NCBI RefSeq assembly: GCF_900292035.1
Contig: NZ_OMPO01000001.1
Location: forward strand, 186,001-250,000
Origin: Blastococcus sp. Marseille-P5729
GTDB taxonomy: Bacteria; Actinomycetota; Actinomycetes; Mycobacteriales; Antricoccaceae
DNA length: 64,000 nt
Direction: 5' to 3'
The notes under the pieces were generated by a model, which saw only the letters and a list, made by a program, of their open reading frames with translations, ran no database searches and had not been told where the DNA came from. The first letter of the stretch is position 1. Each line of letters begins with the position of its first letter. Position numbers and translations under genes: made by a program. Below, one piece after another: positions 28,416-42,321 of the stretch.

Positions 28416-29843
28416 TTACAGCATCTCGCTGCTCTGGCGCAGCTGGTCGATCTCCTCGACGAAGGACTTGGCCCACGCGGCGACGTCGTGCCCCTTGACC
28501 TGACGCTGCATCGCGCGCATCCGCTTGCGCCGTTCACCGACGTCCGCGTTGATTGCCTCCAGATACGCGCTCTTCAGACCCTCGATGTCATAGGGGTTGA
28601 CCAGGTAGGCCTGCTTCAGCTCGCGCGCGGCGCCGGCGAACTCGGAGAGGACCAGCGCCCCGGTGCCGTCGAGCCGACACGCGACGTACTCCTTGGCGAC
28701 CAGGTTCATGCCGTCTCGGAACGGCGTGACGACCATGATGTCAGCGGCCAGGTAGAGGGCGACCAGCTCCTCCCGGGGCATCGACCGGTGGATGTAGGTG
28801 ACGGCCGGATTGCCGACCGCGCCGTACGCGCCGTTGATCCGGCCGACGGTGCGCTCGACGTTCTCCCGCAGCAAGCGATACTGCTCGACCCGCTCACGGC
28901 TAGGCGTCGCCACCTGCACCATGACGGTCTCCGCGGGGTCCACCTTGCTCTCCTCGAGAAGCTCCTCGAAGACCTCCAGGCGGATCCCGATGCCTTTCGT
29001 GTAGTCGAGCCGGTCCACGCCGAGGAGCACGGTGGCGGGGTCGCCGAGGTCGGTGCGTAGCTGCGCGGCCCGCGCCTGCACGGCCGGATCCGCGGCGAGG
29101 TCGGCGAAGCTGGCGACGTCGATAGAGATCGGGAAGGCCCGGGCCCGCACCGACCGGCCGTCGACCTGGACGGTCGAGCCGGATGGCTTGAGCCCCAAGC
29201 GATCGCGGGTGAGCCGTAGGAAGTTGGCGGCTGCGCCCGGAGTCTGGAAGCCGACCAGGTCGGCGCCGAGCAGGCCCTCGATGATCTGTCGGCGCCAGGG
29301 CAGCTGGCTGAACAGCTCGGTGGGTGGGAAGGGGATGTGGAGGAAGAACCCGATCCGGAGGTCGGGGCGCTTCTCGCGCAGCAGGGCCGGAACCAGCTGC
29401 AGCTGATAGTCGTGGACCCAGACGAAAGCGCCGTCGTCCGCGACCTCGGCAGCGGCGTCGGCGAATCGCCGATTCACTGCTACATAGGCATTCCACCACG
29501 CTCGGTGGTACTCGGCAGGGACGACGCCGTCGTGATAGAGCGGCCACAGCGAGGTGTTCGAGAAGCCTTCGTAGTACTTCTCGACCTCGTCGGCGGTCAG
29601 CGGGACCGGGTAGAGGATGAGGCCGTCGTTGCGGAACGGCTCGACGTTCTCCTCGATTGAGTCGGATGCGTCGCCCGCCCAGCCGATCCAGGCGCCATTG
29701 CCCTCCCGCTGCCGCATGAGCGGCTCGACCGCGGTGACCAGCCCGCCTGGGGAGCGGCGCCACGATTCCTGGCCATCCTCGTCCCGCACCCGGTCGACCG
29801 GCAGGCGGTTGGCGACGACGACGAAATCACTCTTGGCAGCCAC
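28416..29843 (-). CDS. otsA: Alpha,alpha-trehalose-phosphate synthase (GT20)
   Basis: A 475-residue retaining glycosyltransferase making trehalose 6-phosphate from a glucose nucleotide and glucose 6-phosphate. Motifs: [37 protein letters not shown] and [15 protein letters not shown] (nucleotide-sugar site). The length is normal. The GTG start at 29843 has TAAGGT ending 6 nt upstream and no clear ribosome-binding site, so the transcript is probably leaderless. The otsB phosphatase gene is not in the window. Confidence 0.96.
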
Positions 29844-29855: not shown

Positions 29856-29979
29856 CCCGCGGCCGGACGACGGTAAGCGAGTTCCAGGTTCCCGCACGTA
29901 GGCCCAAAACCTCAGAATGCGCCTCGAACGGCCAAAGAACAAGACTGGATTCTGCGCCCTTTCGGCGTAGAGTCGGAGA

Positions 29980-30115
29980 TGTGAGGAAGCGGCCGGTCAG
30001 CGGCCAAGCCCTTACAGGCACGAAGCCCTCGGTGGTTGTCCGTAGGCGGGTTAGGACCTCGTGAGCGTCCCCGCATCGGTCGAAGGACCACGACCCACCC
30101 CGGGCTTCGTGCCTT
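29980..30115 (+). ncRNA. Candidate structured RNA (unknown family) in the otsA-hydrolase gap
   Basis: The 314-bp gap at 29,844-30,157 holds a foldable element. Arms 30016-30028 and 30102-30114 are a perfect 13-bp inverted repeat. After a 2x2 loop the helix continues (30031-30039 with 30090-30099, one bulge and one G-U pair). Inside are two smaller hairpins: 30046-30057 with 30067-30074, and GGTC-GAAG-GACC at 30078-30089. This makes a three-way junction. A GGCCG/CGGCC hairpin (29991-30005) precedes it. A plus-strand promoter is possible (TGGATT 29946, TAGAGT 29968). The G-U pair favours the plus strand. It matches no RNA family I recognise and could also be a small mobile repeat. Confidence 0.35.
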
Positions 30116-30157
30116 CTTGTCTGCCTCACACGTCCCGCGGGCAGAACGAGACTGCGG

Positions 30158-40224: not shown

Positions 40225-40258
40225 AATGCCTCACTCCCACGCCCGGGAGTGAGGCATT
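40225..40258 (+). terminator. 14-bp perfect stem-loop between gap and pgk
   Basis: Bases 40225-40238 pair perfectly with 40245-40258 around a 6-nt loop, followed by T-rich TTTCTGG. It lies 10 nt after the gap stop and can terminate or attenuate, or protect the gap mRNA end. Confidence 0.8.
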
Positions 40259-40291
40259 TCTGGTCACCCACCATCTGCCAAGGAGAACCAC

Positions 40292-42280: not shown

Positions 42281-42321
42281 CCTCGTCGAGCGCCCGGCAC
42301 GCGACCGGGCGCTCGACGAGG
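42281..42321 (+). terminator. 17-bp perfect stem-loop after tpiA
   Basis: Bases 42281-42297 are exactly complementary to 42305-42321 across a 7-nt loop, 4 nt after the tpiA stop. No U tract follows, as is usual in actinomycetes. It separates glycolysis from secG. Confidence 0.8.

Follow-up and report, generated by a model that had tools for sequence, protein, structure and literature searches.

A candidate structured RNA gene next to otsA, conserved within one actinobacterial genus

In Actinobacteria, most small RNAs (sRNAs) have been recognised from transcripts alone, and these bacteria are mostly without Hfq. The described systems that come closest to the locus presented here are the bacterial small SRP RNA (RF00169), the 6S RNA and mycobacterial Ms1, which are RNA polymerase-binding RNAs with a long stem and internal interruptions, and the lineage-restricted, stand-alone sRNAs that have no Rfam family.

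Our locus is located in a window of 64,000 nucleotides from Blastococcus sp. Marseille-P5729, and it has been compared with its counterparts in two other species of the genus; the three species, described as well separated, are referred to as G000 (the genome of the window), G001 and G002. With the small SRP RNA, the predicted product shares a length of about 100 nt and a long closed stem, but SRP RNA is encoded by a separate gene in the genus (in G000 at C1:1457587-1457682), as it is in all five genomes of the family, and RF00169 has no match at the locus. An earlier note on this DNA had set SRP RNA and the known riboswitch classes aside, and Rfam agrees on both: no Rfam 15 family exceeds its gathering threshold at the locus, no riboswitch family matches, and the one match that appears at E up to 10, to a Brucella sRNA, is due to chance. 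Compared by description, 6S RNA and Ms1 have in common with our locus an interrupted long stem and a single-copy gene, but here a junction is predicted and the large central bubble is absent. The lineage-restricted sRNAs resemble it in their promoter-like box, intergenic position, compact fold and retention within a genus, while they differ from it in two respects: the stem sequence is here very strictly conserved, and no counterpart has been found outside the genus. A CsrA-sponge RNA (GGA motifs) has been considered and rejected, as none of the three genomes yields a match to CsrA (PF02599). A narrow literature search has returned no description of an otsA-adjacent RNA.

We propose, with a probability of about 0.8, that the locus is a stand-alone, non-coding structured RNA gene, located on the plus strand, with its own promoter and divergent from otsA; its product is very probably a folded sRNA of approximately 135-140 nt.

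The locus and its neighbours

The features of the locus are listed below, in window coordinates.

28416..29843, minus strand: otsA (trehalose-6-phosphate synthase; Pfam Glyco_transf_20, 4e-150), the constant, divergent neighbour
29912..29940, minus strand: putative otsA promoter TTGTTC-17-CATTCT, blocks aligned and kept in 3/3 species
29968..29973, plus strand: putative -10 box of the candidate RNA gene, TAGAGT; weak, TAnnnT kept in 3/3 species
29981..30015, plus strand: 5' domain, MFE predicted independently in each of the three species
29981-29986/30010-30015, plus strand: P0 helix, 6 bp, closing a 4-bp hairpin
29992-29995/30001-30004, plus strand: the 4-bp hairpin inside P0
30016..30114, plus strand: 3' domain; fold z -4.05, 87/101 columns identical, 34 pairs with 0 broken
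30016-30028/30102-30114, plus strand: P1 helix of the 3' domain
30031-30035/30095-30099, extended by 30038-30040/30092-30094, plus strand: P2 helix of the 3' domain
30046-30049/30071-30074 and 30054-30059/30065-30070, plus strand: junction arm one of the 3' domain
30078-30081/30086-30089, plus strand: junction arm two of the 3' domain
30115..30122, plus strand: pyrimidine-rich tail past P1, a possible 3' end, with similar tails in G002 and G001

The promoter-like pair of the earlier note stands in part, as a weak candidate: each species retains its TAnnnT box (TAGAGT in the window, TACCGT in G002 and TACCCT in G001), while a scan with the sigma-70 consensus reports no promoter. A CTGGAT-like -35 element is located about 17 nt upstream of the putative -10 box, with a spacing of 17-18 among the species. 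The 5' end of helix P0 is located 8 nt past the box (29968-29973), a position that fits a transcription start at about 29980. At the other end, a consensus scan for terminators finds none after the RNA. The arrangement of the putative otsA promoter and the putative RNA promoter, as read from their motifs, is consistent with two promoters lying back to back. Between otsA and the RNA, window positions 29905-29950 also contain the blocks CAAGACTGG and CTCAGAATGCGCC, which are conserved in all three species.

The RNA is located at the 5' side of otsA in G000, G001 and G002, and what follows it is different in each. The next gene in the window is the MBL gene, on the opposite strand and convergent; in G001, two genes separate the RNA from the MBL gene, and the MBL gene and uvrA are about 3 kb away; in G002, a different frame follows, near the contig end. 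Since the downstream gene varies and otsA stays, the fixed partner of the RNA is otsA and not the MBL hydrolase. The two genes that intervene in G001 (L091 10327-12358), unlike in the window, are an enoyl-CoA hydratase gene and an NHL-repeat-like gene.

Fold, strand and conservation

The perfect 13-bp inverted repeat that the earlier note had reported is present and corresponds to helix P1; it extends to a 20-nt pair that is 90% complementary, and when the 314-bp gap is shuffled with a first-order Markov model, a perfect repeat of at least 13 bp with a spacer of 3-100 nt arises in 7 of 5000 cases. The inner helix and the two further hairpins that had been drawn within the repeat are found at the same places in the MFE structure. 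The MFE of the 111-nt stretch is -54.4 kcal/mol, compared with a shuffle mean of -40.1 (z -4.05, with 0/200 shuffles as good). As the minus strand, too, forms a more stable fold than its shuffles (z -3.5), folding of a single sequence is unable to decide the strand.

The element is larger than previously described: GUGAGG (29981-29986) pairs with CCUUAC (30010-30015) in helix P0, enclosing a GCCG/CGGC hairpin. This hairpin had been reported as GGCCG/CGGCC; it is real, and the part that is constant across species is GCCG/CGGC, GCCG/CGGU or ACCG/CGGU. The 5' domain directly abuts P1, and thus the two domains may stack on each other. The 144-nt RNA that comprises both domains has the same MFE in each of the three species, with z values from -3.6 to -4.5, and the main helices recur when each species is folded alone.

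The structure of the three-species alignment contains 44 pairs with 0 broken cells. The variable columns are concentrated outside the pairs, both over the whole RNA (5/88 paired vs 20/47 unpaired, Fisher P 3.8e-7) and in the 3' domain alone (2/68 vs 12/32, P 1.2e-5), a contrast that may partly reflect the choice of pairs, as the structure is derived from the same sequences. All changes within helices keep the pairing of the plus strand, several of them only through G-U, and 0 cells are mispaired: in P0, a G-U pair is replaced by A-U in G002, and the hairpin of the 5' domain varies between G-C, G-U and A-U with its pairing kept. Read on the minus strand, the G-U pairs of five helix cells become A-C mismatches; the MFE pairs common to the species number 39-43 on the plus strand, compared with 13-31 on the minus strand. 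Covariation, which the earlier note had named as a check, is not significant with three sequences: one pair has changed on both sides, and 327/500 shuffles reach the observed score. P1 contains no compensatory change at all, and its pairing rests on fold and conservation. As a prediction from aligned sequences, a conserved secondary structure on the plus strand only is well supported.

In the RNA core, 87/101 columns are identical across the three species, while 47/192 (24%) of the four-fold degenerate sites of otsA are identical in all three and the OtsA proteins are 71-80% identical. At the four-fold rate, the binomial chance of at least 86 identical core columns is about 1e-37, a rough value, as the sites are not independent. 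Before the core, 21/84 columns are identical, and after it 16/86, which is background level; the stem strands of P1 and P2 do not vary in sequence. Judged by these alignments, the element is a conserved non-coding sequence under strong purifying selection. A coding sequence has been considered and rejected: the loop indels differ by single bases among the species, and no shared frame is seen.

Two other inverted repeats occur in the window. At 40225-40262, a perfect hairpin, AATGCCTCACTCCC...GGGAGTGAGGCATT, is followed by a short T-rich stretch, as in an ordinary intrinsic-terminator-like site; at 42281-42321, a 17-bp perfect inverted repeat, CCTCGTCGAGCGCCCGG / CCGGGCGCTCGACGAGG, has a 7-nt loop and no T-run.

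Distribution among relatives

Among 60 relatives, only two other species of the genus carry the element (89% and 86% identity), all remaining DNA matches being short, and each of the three genomes contains one full-strength copy instead of the scattered copies of a repeat element. Two covariance models, R1 and R2, have been built. R1 has given no convincing match in either of the family's two sister genera, nor around otsA in ten relatives searched with filters off, nor in samples of 399 order, 395 class and 396 phylum genomes, which overlap and were searched with strict filters, so that distant relatives may be missed; the search with R2 agrees. In the sister genus G004, OtsA shows the same degree of similarity as in G001 (75 and 76%), yet no RNA is found at otsA. 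Plasmid and phage homologues have not been found, nor have exact 24-mer matches in genome and viral collections. Among the genomes searched, the element is restricted to the genus.

Several weak candidates have been rejected. The 18-mer and 16-mer scans returned 8 and 6 scattered matches, none above 20.6 bits with the RNA model. The match in G010, which R2 again finds, sits in a coding frame; that in G029 is a long, plain hairpin located between ORFs, in which no more than P1 and the beginning of P2 is matched; that in G440 is a plain terminator-like hairpin; and that in G155 spans 41 nt only.

Alternative explanations and proposed role

The small-RNA reading of the earlier note has been strengthened by the strong conservation, the confinement of changes to loops, the plus-only pairing and the MFE common to the species; the refutation checks proposed in that note have not overturned it, although covariation is not significant with three sequences. 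An element that acts as DNA and not as RNA, i.e. a protein-binding or cruciform site, for example for a regulator of otsA, would match the invariant strands of P1 and P2 and the minus strand that folds better than its shuffles; we consider it unlikely, as the helix changes are all compatible with the plus strand, several only via G-U, the species share the plus-strand fold and not the minus-strand fold, and the element, which is longer than 100 nt, is preceded by a promoter-like box.

The cis-acting role that had been left open would make the element a leader (riboswitch or attenuator) of the downstream gene, as could be imagined in G001, where the enoyl-CoA hydratase gene follows in the same orientation after about 330 nt; this is quite improbable, given the lack of a conserved downstream gene: the next gene of the window is convergent on the opposite strand, a different frame follows in G002, no same-strand gene is constant, and no Rfam riboswitch matches. 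A small mobile element of MITE-like type, bounded by terminal repeats and formerly the main alternative, would explain the perfect 13-bp terminal inverted repeats and the absence from sister genera, but it is largely refuted by copy number and position, since each of the three species carries a single copy, at the orthologous site flanking otsA; strong purifying selection and the conserved sequence that runs on 5' of the repeat leave it very improbable.

For the stand-alone RNA gene, we envisage that transcription would proceed from its own promoter, from about 29980 to about 30120, divergent from otsA, and would produce a compact RNA of two abutting stem-loop domains, the second consisting of a long closed stem with a junction at its tip; this RNA would most likely act in trans as a regulatory RNA. 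In the long stem, the sequence itself is fixed and not the pairing alone, which suggests recognition by a protein or stem strands that also pair with a target, while the divergent promoters suggest that the RNA and trehalose synthesis respond to common signals (osmotic or stationary-phase stress). The product is perhaps a trans-acting regulatory or protein-binding RNA, co-regulated with trehalose synthesis. More tentatively, and with considerable doubt, it may represent a new RNA family that arose in, or has survived only in, one actinobacterial genus, is recognised by a protein via its fixed stem, is tied to trehalose synthesis by the back-to-back promoters, and is young yet nearly as constrained as housekeeping RNAs.

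The locus adds a predicted, undescribed and strongly selected RNA gene to Actinobacteria. Strictly conserved yet very narrowly distributed, it is well suited to the study of how a new RNA comes under constraint; since it lies beside otsA, a possible connection to trehalose or osmotic stress can be tested directly.
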